44,604 nucleotides of DNA from Candidatus Veblenbacteria bacterium (GTDB taxonomy: Bacteria; Patescibacteriota; Patescibacteriia; Veblenbacterales; UBA10138): NCBI GenBank assembly GCA_030700105.1, contig JAUYKG010000013.1:1-44604 (forward strand). The letters are read 5' to 3'. The notes below the pieces were generated by a model that was given only the letters and a program-made list of their open reading frames with translations, did not search any database and was not told the origin of the DNA. A program made the position numbers and the translations under genes. Of this stretch, positions 28,434 to 44,405 are shown one piece after another; the stretch's first letter is position 1, and every line of letters begins with the position of its first letter.

Positions 28434-28466
28434 AGGACTCCAAATTAACTTGGAGTCCTCTTTTTA
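28434..28466 (+). terminator. Intrinsic terminator
   Basis: AGGACTCCAA-ATTAAC-TTGGAGTCCT-CTTTTTA. Confidence 0.9.
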
Positions 28467-28512
28467 TACCTTGAAAAAAACCGGCTTTTTTGCTAGGGTG
28501 TTCAATAACACT

Positions 28513-29988
28513 ATGGCTACCTTTGAGGACGTAAAAACCCTGGTAAATAAGAACAATCCCGGTGCGGACGTAACTATGCTGGAATTGGCCTACGACTTCG
28601 CCAGCAAGGCCCACGCCGGGCAAAAGCGGCTGGACGGCACGGACTATATTACCCATGCCGTGGAGACCGCCTACACCCTGGCACAGATGAACCTGGACCC
28701 CGATACCATTATGGCCGGCCTTCTGCACGATGTGCCCGAGGATACCGCCGTTACCCTGGAAGAGGTGGAGAAAAACTTTGGGCCCAACGTGGGCAAGCTC
28801 GTGCGCGGCATTACCAAGCTGGGCAAGCTCAAGTACCGCGGGCTGGAACGCTACGCCGAGAACCTGCGCAAAATGTTCGTGGCTATGGCCGAGGACGTGC
28901 GCGTAGTAATTATCAAGCTGGCGGACCGGCTACACAACCTGGAAACCCTTTCCTCCCTGCCGCCAGTAAAGCAACAGCGCATAGCCCGCGAAACCTTGGA
29001 AATTTACGCGCCCATTGCCAACCGCTTAGGCATTGGCGAGCTTAAGGGTAAGCTGGAGGACCTGGCTTTCCGCTACGTGTACCCCAACGAGTACCAGTGG
29101 GTGGTGGAACACACCAAATCCCGCATGGAGGATCAATTGACTTACGTAAACGGGGTAATAACCGAGCTCAAGGAACTGCTTGCCCAGAGCGGGCTCACAA
29201 ACTTTTCCGTACATGGCCGCGTGAAGCACCTCTACTCCCTCTACCGCAAGTTACAACGCAAAGACATGGACATAGCCAAAGTGTACGACCTGGTGGCCAT
29301 AAGGATAATTGTGAATAACGAAGCTGATTGCTACCACGTGCTCGGCCTGCTGCACAATAAGTGGAAACCACTGCCCGGGCGCATTAAAGACTACATTGCC
29401 CAGCCCAAGCCCAACGGCTACCGCAGCTTGCACACCACGGTGTTCGGCGAGGGTGGGCGCATTATAGAGTTCCAGATCCGCGATACAGTAATGCACGACC
29501 ACGCCGAGTACGGTATTGCCGCCCACTGGCACTACAAGGAGAGCAAAGGAACCGAACTCAAGCTACCGCCCGAACAATTAAAATGGATTACCGAACTCCT
29601 GCAGTGGCAAAAGGACATTGTAGATAACGAGCAGTACCTGGCGAGCCTGAAGCTCGACATCTTTCAAAACCGTATTTTCGTGCTCACCCCCAAGGGCGAC
29701 GTTATAGACCTGCCGGAAGAGGCCACACCGGTGGACTTTGCCTACCACATACACTCCGACATTGGTGACCATTGCTCGGGCGCCCGCGTGAACGAAAAAC
29801 TGGTACCATTAGAAACCAAACTCGTCTCGGGCGATTTGGTGGAAATTATTATGGACAAAAACCGCCAAGGCCCGAGCGAGGACTGGCTTAAGTTCGTGAA
29901 AACGAACATGGCACGCGCCCACATTAAGAACTACACCAAAAAAAAGCGCAGTGCCTTCGTAAAGCTGTTTAGCCGCCGCGCCAGCTAA
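28513..29988 (+). CDS. RelA/SpoT homologue, HD + synthetase + TGS, no C-terminal ACT/zinc-finger region
   Basis: HD motif LLHDVPEDTAV, IIKLADRLHNLETL; synthetase IRIIVNNEADCYHVLGLLHNKWKPLPGRIKDYIAQPKPNGYRSLHTTVFG; TGS IFVLTPKGDVIDLPEEATPVDFAYHIHSDIG. Confidence 0.94.
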   Translation: MATFEDVKTLVNKNNPGADVTMLELAYDFASKAHAGQKRLDGTDYITHAVETAYTLAQMNLDPDTIMAGLLHDVPEDTAVTLEEVEKNFGPNVGKLVRGITKLGKLKYRGLERYAENLRKMFVAMAEDVRVVIIKLADRLHNLETLSSLPPVKQQRIARETLEIYAPIANRLGIGELKGKLEDLAFRYVYPNEYQWVVEHTKSRMEDQLTYVNGVITELKELLAQSGLTNFSVHGRVKHLYSLYRKLQRKDMDIAKVYDLVAIRIIVNNEADCYHVLGLLHNKWKPLPGRIKDYIAQPKPNGYRSLHTTVFGEGGRIIEFQIRDTVMHDHAEYGIAAHWHYKESKGTELKLPPEQLKWITELLQWQKDIVDNEQYLASLKLDIFQNRIFVLTPKGDVIDLPEEATPVDFAYHIHSDIGDHCSGARVNEKLVPLETKLVSGDLVEIIMDKNRQGPSEDWLKFVKTNMARAHIKNYTKKKRSAFVKLFSRRAS

Positions 29989-33992: not shown

Positions 33993-35090
33993 ATGAGTTT
34001 ATTTGCTCGTTTGTATAGATATGGTTTTAAGCCGGTGGCTTTTCGTTTAGATCCGGAATTTGTCCATGATCATATTTTAGCCTTTGGTAAAATCCTTGGC
34101 GCACACCGTTTCAGCCGTGCGGCTGTACAAAAGCTCTTTGTATTCAGTTCACCGATGTTGGAGCAGGATATTCTGGGAATTCATTTTTCCAACCCCGTCG
34201 GTTTAGCGGCTGGGTTTGATAAGAACGCTGAGCTTACTGATATTCTGCCGGCGGTTGGTTTTGGTTTTGCCGAGGTAGGTTCGGTTACCGGTGAACCATG
34301 TGCTGGCAATCCCAAACAACGCTTATGGCGTTTACCAAAATCGCAAGCGCTGGTCGTGAATTACGGTTTAAAAAATGATGGGGCCGGGGCTATAGCGCGG
34401 CGGTTGGCGGGGCGTGTGTTTGGCATACCCCTGGGCATCAGCATTGCCAAAACCAATTCACCTGACACCGTACCGACCAAAGCCGGTATAGCCGATTATG
34501 TAAAGGCGTATCGGTCTTTTGTCGGCATTGGCAGCTATACCACCATCAATATCAGCTGCCCGAATGCATTCGGCGGCCAGCCATTTACTGAGCCGGCGAG
34601 CTTGGATGCGCTGCTTGCCGAAATAGACGGCATCCCCACGCGCAAGCCCGTGTTTGTTAAATTATCCCCTGATCTAGCAGAACCTCAGCTGGAAGCTCTG
34701 ATTGCCGTATTGAACAGACACACCGTACATGGCATAGTTTGTACTAATTTAACTAATCATAGAGCTAATCTGAATATAAAAGATGCTGTAGTGCCCGCGG
34801 TCGGCGGCTTAAGTGGCAAGGTGGTGGAACCGCTGGCTAACCGTTTAATAGCCTACATGTATCGGTGCACGCAGGGTAAGTATGTGATTGTGGGGTGCGG
34901 CGGGGTGTTTACGGCAGCAGATGCCTATAAAAAAATCCGCCTGGGCGCATCGCTTATTCAAATGATTACCGGTATGGTCTATCAGGGGCCGCAGGTGATT
35001 GGCGAGATTAACCAAGGCTTGGTAAAGCTGCTTCGTGTGGACGGCTTTAGCAATGTTTCGGAAGCAATTGGAGCTGATAATAAACTTTAG
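33993..35090 (+). CDS. pyrD: Dihydroorotate dehydrogenase (quinone), class 2
   Basis: NPVGLAAGFDKNAELTDILPAVGFGFAEVGSVT, NISCPNAFGGQPF, VFVKLSPDL, IVCTNLTNHR, GCGGVFTAADAYKKIRLGASLIQMITGMVYQGP. Confidence 0.96.
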   Translation: MSLFARLYRYGFKPVAFRLDPEFVHDHILAFGKILGAHRFSRAAVQKLFVFSSPMLEQDILGIHFSNPVGLAAGFDKNAELTDILPAVGFGFAEVGSVTGEPCAGNPKQRLWRLPKSQALVVNYGLKNDGAGAIARRLAGRVFGIPLGISIAKTNSPDTVPTKAGIADYVKAYRSFVGIGSYTTINISCPNAFGGQPFTEPASLDALLAEIDGIPTRKPVFVKLSPDLAEPQLEALIAVLNRHTVHGIVCTNLTNHRANLNIKDAVVPAVGGLSGKVVEPLANRLIAYMYRCTQGKYVIVGCGGVFTAADAYKKIRLGASLIQMITGMVYQGPQVIGEINQGLVKLLRVDGFSNVSEAIGADNKL

Positions 35091-35145: not shown

Positions 35146-35159
35146 TGGTAGCGGGGGTG
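35146..35159 (+). repeat. 14-bp direct repeat TGGTAGCGGGGGTG (candidate attL), copy 1
   Basis: Identical to 44329-44342, the CCA end of the tRNA(CAT) overlapped by the serine recombinase ORF. Confidence 0.55.
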
Positions 35160-35272
35160 CCTGCCTGCGGTAGGCAGGGGAATCCTGCTCGCTCCGACTC
35201 GCAGCCGGGGCGCTACACTCACCCCGCCATCGGCGTGGTTTCTCACGCCCTTCGATTCCCACACTTCCACAC

Positions 35273-35321: not shown

Positions 35322-35494
35322 ACCTCGTGAGAGCCAGTTGGAACCAGCTTATTGAGGAATTGCAGGTTTGGCAGCAGTTACAGCAGGCCGATGTGGTATT
35401 GTTGCCCGGTGCTTAGAACTACCCCACCCCTCAGGCCACTATTGTTTTAGACAGCCCAAGAGAAAGCGAGGCAAATCAAACTTATGGCCGAGCG

Positions 35495-35645: not shown

Positions 35646-36389
35646 TTATGTACCCAAATTATCCTTTCGCGCCTTGTAATTTCCCACGAGTTCAGGGTAA
35701 TTAAGAGGAAACGGTACTCTTGAAGTAGTAAGACCTGGATAGACCTGGTTAATAACGTATAACTTGTTATTTTCGTTATAGGCAATCAATACTTGAGTCT
35801 TGTTTGGTAACTCTGATTTGACAAATAGGTCGTTTAGCCTCTCAAAGTTTATTTCTGATATATCACCTCCTGTTTGTAAAATAATAAGGAGATTCGTATG
35901 GCCCAAATCGTTGCCATAATGCGCCAATTTATCCTTTACAAATCTAAATAACTCATCAGTATCTAATTTTCCCCTATACCTTTTAAGTTGGAATAACCTA
36001 ACGCCATCTTTTGATTTTACGACAAAGTCTATTGGCGTACTTTTTTCTAAAACCCCAACCAATCCTTTAAGGCTGACAACTCGGTCCCTTCTTGGATTGA
36101 AACTATTTTTTAGTTCCAAACAAACCTCGCTGTCTCCTCCATAAAAATTAAGAAATACATAAAATGCACCAAATAACTCACTCTGGTCATTATTTTTTTC
36201 TAACATATCTGATACGGCACCCGATACTTCTATCATTTTTTCTTTACTATCACGCAAATCATCAAGTGTGTAACCACGCCCGGCCATTTCTGATACTAGT
36301 TGTCTGTATGCCTGTTCCTTAAATAAAAGCAGGTATTCATTTTTCGTAAGGCAGATAAAATTACCACCTTGTAATTTAATGGCGTTCAT
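35646..36389 (-). CDS. Putative PD-(D/E)XK-like nuclease, accessory
   Basis: TPIDFVVKSKDGVRLFQLKRYRGK (D...QxK core arrangement); otherwise unrecognised; AT-rich. Confidence 0.5.
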   Translation of the reverse strand: MNAIKLQGGNFICLTKNEYLLLFKEQAYRQLVSEMAGRGYTLDDLRDSKEKMIEVSGAVSDMLEKNNDQSELFGAFYVFLNFYGGDSEVCLELKNSFNPRRDRVVSLKGLVGVLEKSTPIDFVVKSKDGVRLFQLKRYRGKLDTDELFRFVKDKLAHYGNDLGHTNLLIILQTGGDISEINFERLNDLFVKSELPNKTQVLIAYNENNKLYVINQVYPGLTTSRVPFPLNYPELVGNYKARKDNLGT

Positions 36390-36430
36390 AAGTCAGGTAA
36401 TTTATTATTCCTCTTGGCCCAATCAATAAT

Positions 36431-37153
36431 TTATAAATGTAAATCAGTTGGTAAATACTTTTCTAACTCGCCAGTTTCAAAACTGCCAGTCTTAGTTGTT
36501 TTAAGTGTATAGTTATGCTCTTTTGGAACCACCTTCATTAAAGAAATTGTATAGTAAGACTTATTACCGATATCTGTATAGGTAGCGATAATGGCGAAGG
36601 CGTCACGGACTCCAAGCTTAAATCCATCTCCTTGCGCCTCAACATAAGTATGTATTTTATCCATAAGCCCGGTACTTTCATTATCACCCTCTCCCAAATT
36701 GAACAGTCGCCTGAAATCACCATCATCTAAATTGCCCAAATTAGTATAGCCACCAGAGTGATGCAACTGCGTGATACGAAGCTCGATATTTAACGCCGGC
36801 CCCTTCCCTATATTTTTTAGAGAAACCGAATAGGGACCATAGACCTCATCTTTAGAAATAACTATTACCGGCCGTTTCATAAATTCGAGTTGTCTAATAC
36901 CCACTTGCTTAAGCCAATGAGTTTCCTTCGTATACTGAATAATAACTATGGCCGTGAACCATAATACACTTGCGGAAATAGCAGATTTGATGTCGTTTGT
37001 ACCACCCAAATAAAGAATGGCTACTATTCCCAATATAAAGAGGGTGGCAACTAGCCAATCGGAAAAATCAATCGTTGTCTTTTGTTTCAACCATTTATTA
37101 GCCATCATCCTAATTTTTTCTAGTAGTAACATACAAGTCATGAAACTTACCAT
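36431..37153 (-). CDS. Membrane protein (two N-terminal TM, soluble beta-like C-terminal domain), unknown function
   Basis: WLVATLFILGIVAILYLGG...AISASVLWFTAIVIIQY; VSLKNIGKGPALNIELRI. Start overlaps the upstream HD gene stop (TAATG). Confidence 0.6.
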   Translation of the reverse strand: MVSFMTCMLLLEKIRMMANKWLKQKTTIDFSDWLVATLFILGIVAILYLGGTNDIKSAISASVLWFTAIVIIQYTKETHWLKQVGIRQLEFMKRPVIVISKDEVYGPYSVSLKNIGKGPALNIELRITQLHHSGGYTNLGNLDDGDFRRLFNLGEGDNESTGLMDKIHTYVEAQGDGFKLGVRDAFAIIATYTDIGNKSYYTISLMKVVPKEHNYTLKTTKTGSFETGELEKYLPTDLHL

Positions 37154-38214
37154 TATTTTATCAGAATTGCCTCAACTTTTCGATATGCCTGCTTCAATTC
37201 ATCAACTATAGGACTTTTTAAGCGTTCCCTAAGCAAAGCTAGTACCTGGCCGTAAAACCATAACTGCTTATCAGGCGAAGCGCTAAATGCTTCCCAGATT
37301 GCAGCTCCCTTGAGTTTGTAGGCCGCACTCATGGTATTTAGATTATCGATTTTGTCGGCCGTGGCCACCAGTAGCGCCTCTTGGCTGGCTACTTTGAGAT
37401 GTTCAAGGTATTTTTGTTTACGCTCCTGCCATGAAGCCCTGCTCCCTAGGCGGTGTTTGAGCTCAATATCCTCGGTCACTTCAGCCACGATGCTGGCGAC
37501 CCTCTCGCCGAATTCGTGCTTGAGTTGCACAAGGGAGTAATCACAATCCTCCAGCGTATCATGAAGGTACGCAGCAATAATCACATCCTCATCTAGCGTG
37601 TAACCGGCCACAATTGTTGCCACATTGATAGGGTGCGTAATGTAAGGGATGGCGAGACTCTTCCTGGTCTGTCCTTTGTGAAGTTGTTCTGCTTTATCCA
37701 GAGCGGCCCGTACTCGCGGTGTAAAGTGTATTGTTTTCATTCCCCATGTCGCGGTCGGTATGGAAGCAAGATGCTCGGCTTCAATAGACAGATTATCCTG
37801 TCGCTCGCTTAGGTCAATTCTATAGCCTTGCTGGTTCAGAACTGGCAGGATATTTAACCGTTCTTTATAGTCCTTTAGTGTAAGCCAGTGATATTTAGGC
37901 AGACTGAACTGCAAGAGTATGGGCGGCGCTGTTTGCGCTATCCACAAATCAAGGTGATACCAGATGACAAACTCTAAACCATCAATATCAGAGTTCTCCA
38001 GTAAGCTGGCTGAGTGCGGCGCTAGCGGGCCTAAATCGCGAATTTGTCGGCTAGTCTCAATTAAAATGTCCTCGTCTCCTTGGAATGCTCCGGTAAGTAC
38101 GCGGATGGCCGAATAACTGTAGTCTGTAGGGTTGATGAGGTAAGCGGTATAGGTGGCAGCGGCCTCATCCACCACAAAGCCGACATGGATGATTGGTGCA
38201 ATTGATTTATTCAT
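37153..38214 (-). CDS. HD-domain hydrolase related to RelA/SpoT hydrolase domains, with N-terminal domain of unknown function
   Basis: ALDKAEQLHKGQTRKSLAIPYITHPINVATIVAGYTLDEDVIIAAYLHDTLEDCDYSLVQLKHEFGERVASIVAEVTED...ATADKIDNLNTM. Start uncertain (ATG 38214 or TTG 38268). Confidence 0.8.
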   Translation of the reverse strand: MNKSIAPIIHVGFVVDEAAATYTAYLINPTDYSYSAIRVLTGAFQGDEDILIETSRQIRDLGPLAPHSASLLENSDIDGLEFVIWYHLDLWIAQTAPPILLQFSLPKYHWLTLKDYKERLNILPVLNQQGYRIDLSERQDNLSIEAEHLASIPTATWGMKTIHFTPRVRAALDKAEQLHKGQTRKSLAIPYITHPINVATIVAGYTLDEDVIIAAYLHDTLEDCDYSLVQLKHEFGERVASIVAEVTEDIELKHRLGSRASWQERKQKYLEHLKVASQEALLVATADKIDNLNTMSAAYKLKGAAIWEAFSASPDKQLWFYGQVLALLRERLKSPIVDELKQAYRKVEAILIK

Positions 38215-38235
38215 ATAATTTTGATTAAAAAGCGA

Positions 38236-38294
38236 AAAACGGCCAAGAGATTTAATCCAGTCCGACAAACTGGATGAAATCTCCCAACCGTTTT
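38236..38294 (-). terminator. Long attenuator-like hairpin in leader of HD gene
   Basis: AAAACGG-(4x4 internal loop)-GAGATTT-ATCCAG...CTGGAT-AAATCTC-...-CCGTTTT, T5 on the minus strand, immediately before the ATG. Confidence 0.65.
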
Positions 38295-38423
38295 AGGGTC
38301 AGTCGCGCATGACATCTGGCTTCTCGCAGATTTCCCAAGTCGCCTATCCGCCCTCTGGGGCGAAAGACATGCACGGTCCGTGATAAGTCGCGGACTACTT
38401 CAGTAAGTAAAAGAACTACTAAC

Positions 38424-38453
38424 AGTATAGCAGTCTAAAGCCCATTGCGTCAA
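38424..38453 (-). promoter_or_regulatory. Promoter TTGACG-N18-TATACT for HD-module leader
   Basis: -35 at 38448-38453 overlapping the SNase stop, -10 at 38424-38429. Confidence 0.65.
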
Positions 38454-39100
38454 TCGCTGATTGGATTTGTCTCTAAACGACCACTAGTATTTTCAGTTAC
38501 CTGACACCCGCTCCAGAGCCCCAACTTCTGCGTCCTGGCTAGTTCCTGTGCTTCTGTAAATTCATCCTGCTTCGATATATCTGGTGAATAAGTATAGGAA
38601 AAGGCGTACCCTGTCTTCACCATCTCAAGGTTAACAAATGTGCCATCTTCCAAATAAACATAACCCAGTAGGCGCTGGTACTTATCGCGTTCAGTGACGT
38701 CCTTATAGAACTTAATTTGTTTGCCTTCAACTAGTTCCTTATTTTTTTCACTAGCTTGTTCAGCAAAGCATTGGACGGGTTTCCTGGGGTCGTTCTTTTC
38801 AGGCGTGTTTATGCCTATGTACCTCAACCTTTCCCCGTTTTCTAGTTGTATGGTATCGCCATCAATGACTCTAGCAACTCTTATCAGCTGGCCGTATTCA
38901 GGTGTCTCTAGGGGCGTAGCTACGGGCGCTTCTTCAGCCCCTGAATTACCTATCCTATTATTGAGTGTGTTTAGGTCAGCAGCTACAACTCGGCGCAGCT
39001 CATTGATTTCATTGGATAAGAAATAATGAGACCCTAGGATAAAACTCAATACTAAAACAAAGAAGGCTGCTATTAGGCTGTAAATACGTACGAAGCTCAT
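38450..39100 (-). CDS. Membrane-anchored thermonuclease (SNase) family protein
   Basis: N-terminal TM; RVARVIDGDTIQLENGERLRYIGINTPEKNDP, DKYQRLLGYVYLEDGTFVNLEMVKTGYA, ARTQKLGLWSGC. Confidence 0.9.
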   Translation of the reverse strand: MSFVRIYSLIAAFFVLVLSFILGSHYFLSNEINELRRVVAADLNTLNNRIGNSGAEEAPVATPLETPEYGQLIRVARVIDGDTIQLENGERLRYIGINTPEKNDPRKPVQCFAEQASEKNKELVEGKQIKFYKDVTERDKYQRLLGYVYLEDGTFVNLEMVKTGYAFSYTYSPDISKQDEFTEAQELARTQKLGLWSGCQVTENTSGRLETNPISD

Positions 39101-39381
39101 CGTAGTGATTTACGCCAACCAGCTTGTCTAGCTTCCTCTTCAGAACAAAACCATCTTTCACCATTTGAGGTGTCAATTTTTGTCTGGTCGTAGAAACTTC
39201 CACCTGGGACATGATAAATTCTTTCTCCAGAACTACTTATATTACCTTTAATAATGCACTCTGTAGTTTCGTCTAGAAAGGACGGAGGCGGTGTGGGCCC
39301 ATTGGGTTTATTAATTAACGCATAAATACCTATACCAAGTAGCGCAATCACTACAAGTAATAAATATATGATTTTTTTCAT
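39097..39381 (-). CDS. Membrane-anchored sunset-domain-like protein
   Basis: TM + CIIKGNISSSGERIYHVPGGSFYDQTKIDTSNGERWFCSEEEARQAGWRKS; 4-bp overlap (ATGA) with SNase gene. Confidence 0.75.
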   Translation of the reverse strand: MKKIIYLLLVVIALLGIGIYALINKPNGPTPPPSFLDETTECIIKGNISSSGERIYHVPGGSFYDQTKIDTSNGERWFCSEEEARQAGWRKSLR

Positions 39382-39444: not shown

Positions 39445-39528
39445 GAGACTTTCGTCTCCTACACCCTTTCGGGCGTAGACCACGGACATGGAGCCTGAAC
39501 GATGGGTTCAGTATGTCCGTGGCTTTTG
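39445..39528 (+). ncRNA. Candidate three-hairpin RNA ending in terminator
   Basis: GAGAC-TTTC-GTCTC; CTAC(A)CCC-TTTC-GGG(C)GTAG; CCACGGACAT...CTGAAC/GTTCAG...ATGTCCGTGG then CTTTT. Confidence 0.55.
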
Positions 39529-39635
39529 TGCCATGCCCCACAGCAACGCCGGGAGGTTTAGGCAATTCAGTTGTGCTTTTGTTTTACCCCAAAATGGTCT
39601 AAATTACAAGGGGTTAGCTCCATCATTAAATTACT

Positions 39636-40861: not shown

Positions 40862-42142
40862 ATGGCAATTACTAGCGATACTCAATTTCAGCCCCTTAGC
40901 ATCCATAGCCTGGCCGAGATTCTAGGCCTCACTATTAAGCAAGATGAGCAGAACAAGGTAGTAACGTTCCTGTGTGAGCTGTCAGCCTACACTGATAATG
41001 CCCAGTTCAACATAAGTTACAACGCGCCCTCCTCTACTGGTAAGAGCTTTATACCACTCCAAATCGCTTCGCTGTTTCCTGATGAAGACGTGATAAAGTT
41101 AGGCAACTGTTCGCCGACTGCATTTTTTCACGAACAGGGCGACTATAACAAGGAAACTAACGTTATTACGGTTGACTTATCCAGAAAGATACTGATATTT
41201 CTGGACCAACCACACAATCTGTTGCTTGAACGTCTACGCTCGTTGTTGTCTCACGACCAGAAGCAGATGACATCCAAAATCACCGATAAGAACCAGCGGG
41301 GTGGTAATCGCACAAAAACTGTAATTATCAACGGCTATCCGGCAGTTATCTTCTGTACTGCAGGTCTTAAAATTGACGAGCAGGAGGGTACACGTTTCCT
41401 TCTCCTTAGCCCAGAGGTCAGTCAGGATAAAATCCGCCAGGGCGTCCAAGAGAAGGTTCGCAAAGAGGCTGATAACGACAGCTACAAGTCTTGGCTCGAC
41501 GGCAACCTAAACCGCCACCTACTCAAGGCACGAATCCAAGCCATTAAGGAGGTTGGCATTGAGGAAATAAGGCTCACAGAACCTGAAAAAATCTCTGAGC
41601 GCTACCTGAAACAGCGGAAGTTCCTCAAGCCCCGACACCAACGCGATGTAGGTAGGTTGCTCGCCATCATTAAGGCACTAACCCTGCTCAACTTTTGGTG
41701 GCGGGAGCGAGATAAATTCACGATAACCGCAAACAAGGATGACGTAGAGGAGGGCTTTGCATTATGGGATAAGATTTCCGAGAGCCAGGAACTCAACTTG
41801 CCGCCATACATATACAAACTTTATCACGAAGTCATAATACCCGCCTGGGAGACAAAACAAGCCCTAGGGGAGGGCCTAACCCGACAAGATGTAAGTCAGA
41901 AGCACTATGAAGTCTACGGCCGCATGGTGGATAGCCAACAGCTTCGCCAGCAAATACTACCCATGCTCGAAACTGCTGGTTTAATCACCCAGGAGCCTGA
42001 CCCGTCCGATAAACGTAAGTTACTTATTTACCCCACTACAACAACCACTATACCTGAGCCACAAAACAATAGTGGTAGCAAGGGTGGGGTATCCAATGAA
42101 ATTGCGTCTCATGAACTAGTGGGAGAAGATATACCGTTCTAA
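40862..42142 (+). CDS. P-loop ATPase, probable replication/helicase-like protein of the element
   Basis: Walker A NAPSSTGKSF, Walker B ILIFLDQPH; winged-helix-like C-terminal region. Confidence 0.6.
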   Translation: MAITSDTQFQPLSIHSLAEILGLTIKQDEQNKVVTFLCELSAYTDNAQFNISYNAPSSTGKSFIPLQIASLFPDEDVIKLGNCSPTAFFHEQGDYNKETNVITVDLSRKILIFLDQPHNLLLERLRSLLSHDQKQMTSKITDKNQRGGNRTKTVIINGYPAVIFCTAGLKIDEQEGTRFLLLSPEVSQDKIRQGVQEKVRKEADNDSYKSWLDGNLNRHLLKARIQAIKEVGIEEIRLTEPEKISERYLKQRKFLKPRHQRDVGRLLAIIKALTLLNFWWRERDKFTITANKDDVEEGFALWDKISESQELNLPPYIYKLYHEVIIPAWETKQALGEGLTRQDVSQKHYEVYGRMVDSQQLRQQILPMLETAGLITQEPDPSDKRKLLIYPTTTTTIPEPQNNSGSKGGVSNEIASHELVGEDIPF

Positions 42143-42830: not shown

Positions 42831-44363
42831 ATGAAAGGCATAATCTACACCAGGGTATCAAGCGACGAACAAGTGAAAGGTACTTCCTTGGATTTTCAGG
42901 AAGAGATTTGTCGCAACTACTGTAAGGATAAAGGCATTGAGGTGCTGGCTTTGTTCCGTGAGGAGGGGGCTTCGGCCAAAACAGCTGAACGAGCAGAATT
43001 CCTAAGAGCTATTGAGTTTTGTAGAAAGAACAAGGGCAAGGTTGAGGCGTTCGTTGTAGCCAAAGTGGATAGGTTTGCCCGCAATACCGAGGACCACTTT
43101 TACGTAAGGAAAATACTGCTTGATTACGGCGTGACACTGCACTCAGTAAGTGAACCTATAGGGAACAGCCCGGTTGGAAAGTTTTTTGAAACTATGTTGG
43201 CGGGCAGTTCTGAATTTGATAATGCCATACGGAAACAGCGCTGCACCGACGGTATGCTCACCAGATTAAAGCAAGGCGTTTGGCCGTGGAATCCGCCGCC
43301 TGGCTACAAGCCTGGTAACTGGACTCGGCGAAGGGAAAAGAAGCTGCTACCAGACCAGCCTGACGAGCGGCTGTTCCCTATCATCCAGCGGGCGCTAAAG
43401 GAGTACGCCAAGGGGCTGTGTTCCCAGGTTGAGCTGGCAGGGTTGATGGACACGTGGGGATTTAAGGAAGCGCGTGGTCGGAAAACCCAAAACCAATTCG
43501 TTGATAGGGTGCTGGGCAGGTATCTGCCATTCTACGCTGGCATCTTGGTTAATCCCTGGACTGGTGAAGAGATTGATGGTTTACACAAGGCCATGATAAG
43601 CAAAGCGGAAATGGCGCAAATCAAGTTTGTCCGTTCGGGTAAGGCCAGGCTCGCTAAGAGAGAAAGGTACAACCCAGAGTTTCCGTTGCGGCGAACCGTT
43701 ATCTGCGCCGTCTGCACAGTACCACTTACCGGTAGTGCTCCCCGCGGCAACGGTGGCCGGTACCTTTACTACCACTGCCACAATAAAAAGTGCTTAATGT
43801 TTGGCAAGAGCATAGCCAAAAAAGACCTGGAAGCAGAGTTCCTGCGGTATTTGGAGACCATTACCCCTAACGAGAAGTGGCTGGCCGTATTCAAGGAAAG
43901 TGTCTTGGATTTATGGGAGGAGCAGGGCAAAGGGTTTGATGTAGCAGCACAGCGGTATGAGCGGCAGCTCGCCCTCTTAGAGACTAAAAGAAAGCGCGTC
44001 TACGAAATGCGTGAGGATGGCTCGTACACTAAGGAAGAATTTTTAGAACGGAGGCAGGAAGTAGATAACGAAATTACGGCCGCAAAAATATCTGTGAATG
44101 AGTCTAGGATTGAACAATTTGATATAGAGGGCTCGCTTACGTATGCCACTAACTTTATTCGCAACCTCGGCAGGCAGTGGTTTGATTTGCCGCCTCAAAT
44201 TCGCCCTCGGTTCCAAAAGTTACTGTTTCCGGAGGGTTTGCCATATAAAAAGGGGGTAGGATTTGGAACCGCCAGACTAGGGCTTATCTACACACTAAAA
44301 GAGACTTCTCGTAGTGAGAAATCTCTTGTGGTAGCGGGGGTGGGAATCGAACCCACGACCTAG
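42831..44363 (+). CDS. Large serine recombinase (site-specific integrase)
   Basis: GIIYTRVSSDEQVKGTSLDFQEEICRNYCKDKGIEVL, VAKVDRFARNTEDH; recombinase domain; zinc ribbon CAVC...CHNKKC; coiled coil. Last 11 codons lie inside a tRNA gene. Confidence 0.93.
   Translation: MKGIIYTRVSSDEQVKGTSLDFQEEICRNYCKDKGIEVLALFREEGASAKTAERAEFLRAIEFCRKNKGKVEAFVVAKVDRFARNTEDHFYVRKILLDYGVTLHSVSEPIGNSPVGKFFETMLAGSSEFDNAIRKQRCTDGMLTRLKQGVWPWNPPPGYKPGNWTRRREKKLLPDQPDERLFPIIQRALKEYAKGLCSQVELAGLMDTWGFKEARGRKTQNQFVDRVLGRYLPFYAGILVNPWTGEEIDGLHKAMISKAEMAQIKFVRSGKARLAKRERYNPEFPLRRTVICAVCTVPLTGSAPRGNGGRYLYYHCHNKKCLMFGKSIAKKDLEAEFLRYLETITPNEKWLAVFKESVLDLWEEQGKGFDVAAQRYERQLALLETKRKRVYEMREDGSYTKEEFLERRQEVDNEITAAKISVNESRIEQFDIEGSLTYATNFIRNLGRQWFDLPPQIRPRFQKLLFPEGLPYKKGVGFGTARLGLIYTLKETSRSEKSLVVAGVGIEPTT
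44299..44327 (-). terminator. Terminator of tRNA(CAT), inside recombinase 3' coding sequence
   Basis: Minus strand AAGAGATTTCTC-ACTAC-GAGAAGTCTCTT followed by TTAG, directly after the encoded CCA. Confidence 0.65.
44329..44342 (+). repeat. 14-bp direct repeat TGGTAGCGGGGGTG (candidate attR), copy 2
   Basis: Identical to 35146-35159. Confidence 0.55.
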
Positions 44364-44405
44364 GGCTTATGAGTCCCTCGCTCTAACCGACTGAGCTACC
44401 CCGCC
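44329..44405 (-). tRNA. tRNA with CAT anticodon (elongator Met or Ile2), encoded CCA
   Basis: GGCGGGGTAGCTCAGTCGGTTAGAGCGAGGGACTCATAAGCCCTAGGTCGTGGGTTCGATTCCCACCCCCGCTACCA; loop CTCATAA. Confidence 0.88.

Follow-up and report, generated by a model that had tools for sequence, protein, structure and literature searches.

The question raised by this locus is whether three consecutive genes on the minus strand, encoding an HD hydrolase, a 2-TM membrane protein and a PD-(D/E)XK-like nuclease, constitute a single anti-phage or toxin system in which a nucleotide hydrolase would act together with a membrane effector and a nuclease, as an earlier note on this DNA proposed. In what follows, the window is the whole 44,604-nt stretch of DNA that was analyzed, and coordinates refer to the window unless another locus is named (Table 1). 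The gene layout described in the note was confirmed: the three ORFs run head to tail in the order HD, 2-TM, nuclease-like, in AT-rich surroundings (GC content of 0.375–0.46 in the three-ORF region compared with 0.53–0.61 in the left part of the window) that also hold a serine recombinase. The three ORFs are real yet do not make up a conserved system; the three-gene module is not supported, and our attention moves to a structured RNA upstream of the HD gene, which the earlier note overlooked and which is most likely cis-regulatory for genes of small alarmone hydrolases (SAH).

Table 1. Location of the features discussed in the text, in window coordinates.
Feature	Position	Strand	Evidence or remark
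HD gene (SAH type)	37153-38214 from probable ATG (37153-38268 from TTG)	-	HD_4 8e-22; PDB 7qoc 1e-30; catalytic positions aligned
HD / alarmone hydrolase domain	37216-37725	-	aa 182-351 counted from TTG start
Accessory domain of HD protein	37780-38187	-	36% identity to C-terminal domain of G715 SAH
2-TM protein with soluble C-terminal domain	36431-37153; start uncertain: 37153, 37108 or 37105	-	relatives L039, L040
Orphan ORF with PD-(D/E)XK-like motif PIDFVV...FQLKRY	35646-36389	-	motif and low-confidence model
Promoter-like site TTGACG-18-TATACT, extended -10, TGCTATACT	38424-38453	-	10/12 consensus matches
Conserved structured RNA core, 161 nt (model R1/R2)	38235-38395	-	z = -5.2; homologs L038, L073, L028; covariation
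Apical-loop sequence GGGAAATCTGCGA	38324-38336	-	GGGAAATCTGCG identical in 4/4 RNA copies
Terminator-like hairpin (about 26-27 bp) and U-tract	38236-38294	-	5' arm CGGTTGGGAGATTTC (38290-38276) identical in 4/4 copies
Serine recombinase of element, ends inside tRNA-Met (44329-44405)	42831-44363	+	43% identical to L073-element recombinase
14-bp repeat of tRNA-Met 3' end, TGGTAGCGGGGGTG (also 44329-44342)	35146-35159	+	possible left end of element; ambiguous
Bifunctional Rel (HD_4 + RelA_SpoT + TGS); context, outside element	28450-29985	+	sole RelA_SpoT match in genome

That the three genes form one system is very improbable. Their common strand and the overlap or short gaps between them favor it, as do the neighborhoods of their homologs: one relative of the 2-TM protein adjoins a restriction-modification-like gene and a weakly PycTM-like protein (L039), another adjoins an NTPase and a probable DUF3800 protein (L040), and the HD homolog of genome G715 adjoins a DUF2779 protein and a methyltransferase-like protein. 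Against it, the three genes never occur together in any sampled genome. Co-occurrence elsewhere, which the earlier note expected of a single system, is absent from the sampled genomes for the HD and 2-TM families, which occur apart, and the nuclease-like ORF is an orphan without relatives to compare. The PADLOC scan suggested in the note has no model matching any of the three ORFs, that is, no known anti-phage system is recognized. The third-position GC content also differs (GC3 of 0.49 for the HD gene and of 0.37 and 0.32 for the other two ORFs), and because of this difference we regard the 2-TM protein and the orphan ORF as a separate pair. The region would consist of two separate pieces of cargo, an RNA-SAH regulatory unit and an AT-rich pair placed behind the SAH gene on the same serine-recombinase element.

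In the AT-rich pair, the 2-TM protein has two distant relatives, in the unrelated settings given above, and the one in L039 aligns mainly from KWLKQK onward. The TAATG overlap between the HD and 2-TM genes is real (37155–37153), but coupling is uncertain because M16 or M17, and not the overlapping ATG, may be where the 2-TM protein (P0002) starts. The nuclease-like ORF (P0001) stays open for 247 codons in sequence of about 37% GC, which is very unlikely to arise by chance. Searches of the sampled genomes (95 from relatives plus 380 drawn from the phylum), of GTDB and IMG/VR contigs (within reach of close relatives only), and of phages and plasmids brought up no relative; matches of the ORF below 0.01, to ClpC-, DnaE- and DnaB-type proteins and neighbors, were dismissed as chance matches. 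The D...(E/Q)XK motif noted earlier is present, on paired strands (120–126 and 129–138) of a low-confidence model (pLDDT 47) whose predicted beta-beta-alpha-beta core has a strand order that fits PD-(D/E)XK. PD-(D/E)XK-fold nucleases are among the weak Foldseek matches of this model, none at E <= 0.001. In comparison with PD-(D/E)XK nucleases, the ORF has the motif and the predicted core but no homolog, Pfam match or significant fold match, and the motif and weak model suggest a plausible but unproven nuclease.

The HD protein is more specific than the generic HD hydrolase first described: it is a hydrolase of the nucleotide type, as was noted, and within that type an SAH. In addition to the Pfam and PDB matches in Table 1, it matches the hydrolase part of TIGR00691 at 3e-27, the next best PDB matches by sequence are 7qoe (5e-26) and 4yf1 (3e-23), the HD and metal-binding positions (R, H, HD, ED, D, N) are conserved in the alignments, and domain search finds no synthetase domain. 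These features point to a likely alarmone-degrading SAH whose HD motifs are intact, encoded on a mobile element of a tiny genome that looks Patescibacteria-like. Within the phylum, the proteins closest to it are for the most part SAHs of a single domain, about 32–45% identical, which keep the catalytic positions, and the activity of SAH relatives has been published (PMC5954133, PMC9765508). The likely start of the gene is the ATG at 38214, since the TTG at 38268 falls within the terminator-like hairpin. No Shine-Dalgarno sequence precedes the gene, as is also the case for most other listed starts of the window, and we therefore rejected this absence as a special feature. The N-terminal domain, described earlier as novel, is real and rare, with one other copy among the genomes searched, located C-terminally to the HD domain in the G715 SAH; weak matches in G010 (unrelated genes) and G615 (E 0.003) were set aside. 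With the SAHs RelH of C. glutamicum, XccSAH and ATfaRel (Pfam HD_4) the protein shares HD_4, the SAH motifs and the lack of a synthetase domain, whereas it differs from them in the extra N-terminal accessory domain, in the conserved RNA that precedes its gene and in having no toxSAS partner on the element.

Alarmone synthesis bears on what such an enzyme might do. It is true, as the earlier note stated, that no alarmone synthetase is adjacent, but a bifunctional Rel lies in the same window, 7 kb from the HD gene. It is the only RelA/SpoT synthetase in the genome, and (p)ppGpp can probably be made because it is present. No toxSAS-type synthetase was found on the element or elsewhere in the genome, nor, for an SAH serving as antitoxin of a toxSAS pair, the adjacent toxic alarmone synthetase. 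These negative results also weigh on the fairly doubtful proposal that the SAH is a counter-defense or self-protection gene of the element, removing toxic alarmones (or pyrophosphate at the 3'-CCA of tRNA) that toxSAS-type immune proteins of the host or of competing elements produce, as does a copy of the RNA-SAH arrangement outside any evident element (G652). In its favor, phage and plasmid records do include SAH genes, products of toxSAS enzymes can be neutralized by SAHs such as ATfaRel (PMC11782079), and the HD gene sits on a serine-recombinase element. This role would be compatible with the regulation by attenuation considered below. As separate observations on SAH neighborhoods, a single-domain SAH gene in G505 is convergent with a small alarmone synthetase gene (RelA_SpoT 1e-12; L053 5488–6568), and in G652 (L081 3926–4991) and G695 (L043 5128–5888) the vicinity of an SAH gene includes a SocA/Panacea-type antitoxin gene accompanied by a small partner ORF, the SocA_Panacea domain assignment having been checked on L043 only.

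The gap between the upstream SNase gene and the HD gene contains the structured RNA. The gap folds with z = -5.2, and the corresponding gap before the G715 HD gene with z = -3.9. The leader is ~185–200 nt long (38417–38235, minus strand), its transcript probably starting near 38417, downstream of a promoter-like site in a region where the total of such sites is not above the shuffled mean. In Rfam 15, no family came close to its gathering score when the copies of the window, G715 and G652 were scanned, which speaks against a known family; by the evidence available here, the RNA is a structured family absent from Rfam.

Four copies of this RNA were found, the one in the window and three more. 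The second lies in the gap before the G715 HD gene (L038), the third on an IMG/VR contig (L073), where it was found by a pattern taken from the hairpin, and the fourth before another SAH in G652, where a covariance model of the first three scored 87 bits (E 1e-21) in a search of 47 sources and 430 kb (the window and fetched loci). G715 and G652 belong to other families of the phylum. Matches of the hairpin pattern in L067, L068–L072 and L074–L078 were discarded, being coding sequence or without further similarity around the match, which leaves L073 as the only true copy among the pattern matches; searches with the leader DNA in phages and plasmids found none. In the four-copy alignment, which was fitted to the model structure and favors that structure somewhat, 17 of 52 pairs are changed on both sides, a number reached by none of 500 shuffles (mean 6.1), and 97% of cells are paired. 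All five helices contribute to the covariation, and sliding the partners as a control destroys the pairing signal. RNAalifold applied to a MAFFT alignment of three copies gives 14 pairs changed on both sides. An extended -10 sequence (TGnTATAnT) is found 25–31 nt before helix 1 in all four copies.

The position of the RNA relative to genes connects it to the SAHs. A terminator-like hairpin, as expected of an expression platform, directly precedes a same-strand ORF in every copy, the distance from the RNA core to the ORF being 20 nt in the window, 60 nt in G715, 40 nt in G652 and 63 nt in L073. The SAHs behind the RNA have three architectures: in the window the accessory domain precedes the HD domain, in G715 it follows, and the G652 protein (267 aa) has another N-terminal region. 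When 39 SAH-bearing genomes were searched completely, strong RNA matches occurred only in the window genome, G715 and G652, each directly upstream of an SAH gene; as these genomes were chosen as SAH carriers, the result speaks for adjacency within genomes and not for exclusivity of the RNA to SAH genes. A match in G429 (27.7 bits) also appears on the other strand at the hairpin and was taken as a chance long hairpin.

The RNA could be a free-standing sRNA that acts in trans, its GGGAAAUCUGCG loop being available, for instance, to transcripts from elsewhere, while the gene behind it would be a neighbor and not the target. This is consistent with its own promoter signal and very strong terminator, the invariant unpaired loop, the unrelated ORFs that follow it in L073, and its carriage by mobile elements in three of four cases. 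We nevertheless find it rather unlikely, as the RNA stands directly upstream of an SAH gene in all three searched genomes that hold it, in front of three SAH architectures, and as only 20 nt separate the hairpin from the probable ATG in the window. This distance between the U-tract and the ATG is too short for a separate promoter, so the HD gene must be reached by read-through, and therefore the RNA should control it by attenuation.

We consider it fairly probable that the RNA acts in cis, probably by attenuation, on alarmone-hydrolase genes and has been partly spread by tRNA-targeting elements, with the AT-rich pair as separate cargo. Conservation and covariation of the RNA, the promoter and terminator signals, the position before SAH genes in three genomes and the SAH motifs are its observed basis; from these we infer the attenuation, the signal, and the activity and substrate of the enzyme. 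By default, the transcript would stop at the hairpin. In response to a signal, the terminator's 5' arm would be captured by the GGGAAAUCUGCG loop or by some other partner, leading to read-through and synthesis of the SAH. The enzyme would in turn break down (p)ppGpp-type nucleotides coming from the host Rel or from toxic alarmone synthetases. Alternatively, the SAH may act on NADPH as well, like an orphan SAH (PMC9765508). Neither the hairpin 5' arm (CGGUUGGGAGAUUUC) nor the apical-loop sequence varies among the four copies, and together they include a GAAAUCU/AGAUUUC complementarity, a candidate for an anti-terminator pairing or a loop-arm contact. Nested folding does not favor the anti-terminator, also in the truncated transcript; since the terminator form is far more stable, no switch is shown by folding. 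Like intrinsic-terminator attenuators, the leader has a promoter, a folded domain and a terminator hairpin with a U-tract followed by an ORF, but unlike them it has no alternative anti-terminator favored by folding. Several further points weigh against attenuation in cis: the known copies number only four, the ORFs behind the one in L073 lack an HD domain, the last genomes to be searched had been selected as SAH carriers, most SAH genes in the sample have no such RNA, and the four-copy alignment was fitted as described above.

Given its place before SAH genes in three genomes, the RNA is possibly an RNA switch of a new kind. The most specific version, which we regard as unlikely, is that the leader represents a new riboswitch class, carried by Patescibacteria and their tRNA-targeting mobile elements, that senses an alarmone or related nucleotide (a breakdown product, or ppGpp, pGpp or ppApp itself) and responds by switching on the hydrolase by which that nucleotide is removed. 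The ykkC subtype 2a ppGpp riboswitches offer an analogy only, as structured leaders that link alarmones to gene control; they precede amino-acid biosynthesis genes and not alarmone hydrolases (PMC7266159), and the leader described here has no Rfam match to any family. No structured RNA before genes of alarmone-degrading enzymes was found in Rfam or in the literature searched, where the known ppGpp riboswitches precede biosynthesis genes. Should the link between the RNA and SAH hold, alarmone removal would be under a control at the RNA level that can be tested directly, both in a group whose genomes are tiny and on mobile elements; either way, the analysis contributes a structured RNA family that Rfam lacks, together with a covariance model that can serve in a broader census.

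The mobile setting is shared by most of the copies. The L073 contig repeats the backbone of the window's element, including a small ORF that resembles the window's DUF5659 ORF, and ATPase-like and zinc-ribbon-like ORFs (identified by eye); its serine recombinase is 43% identical over 394 aa to that of the window, and in both elements the RNA is found at the end opposite the recombinase. The serine recombinase gene of G715 extends into the 3' end of a tRNA-Ser, much as that of the window overlaps tRNA-Met, whereas the G652 copy is not in an evident element. From these settings, tRNA-targeting serine-recombinase elements carry the RNA-SAH unit, which also occurs outside them. As an element boundary, the 14-bp repeat at 35146 is suggestive but ambiguous, since a tRNA-like 5' part is present there too. 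No att repeat was found for the G715 element. For the pyrD-like gene beside the window's element (33993–35090, plus strand), a comparison with seven other genomes of the family gave no match at E 1e-20.

Several minor features were observed in and around these elements. The G715 HD gene and its two neighbors named above (L038 7124–12596) are located on the element at tRNA-Ser. A tRNA-like relic at 35146–35228 (minus strand), with tRNA-Met acceptor ends and an internal palindrome CCTGCCTACCGCAGGCAGG, could be an old copy of a tRNA or mark the left end of the window's element. Between 35420–35448 and 42063–42091, a 29-nt inverted match (83%) resembles a relic copy, in opposite orientation, of the end of the ATPase-like gene, beside a tRNA-Arg, and is perhaps a remnant of an earlier related element. 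A LOOT RNA (RF03000, 77 bits, gathering score 46.4) is found at 39445–39564 (minus strand) on the same element, upstream of genes for a small sunset-domain protein and a staphylococcal-type nuclease (SNase, 2e-27) with an N-terminal hydrophobic segment, which stand head to tail at 38450–39381 (minus strand), directly upstream of the RNA-SAH unit.
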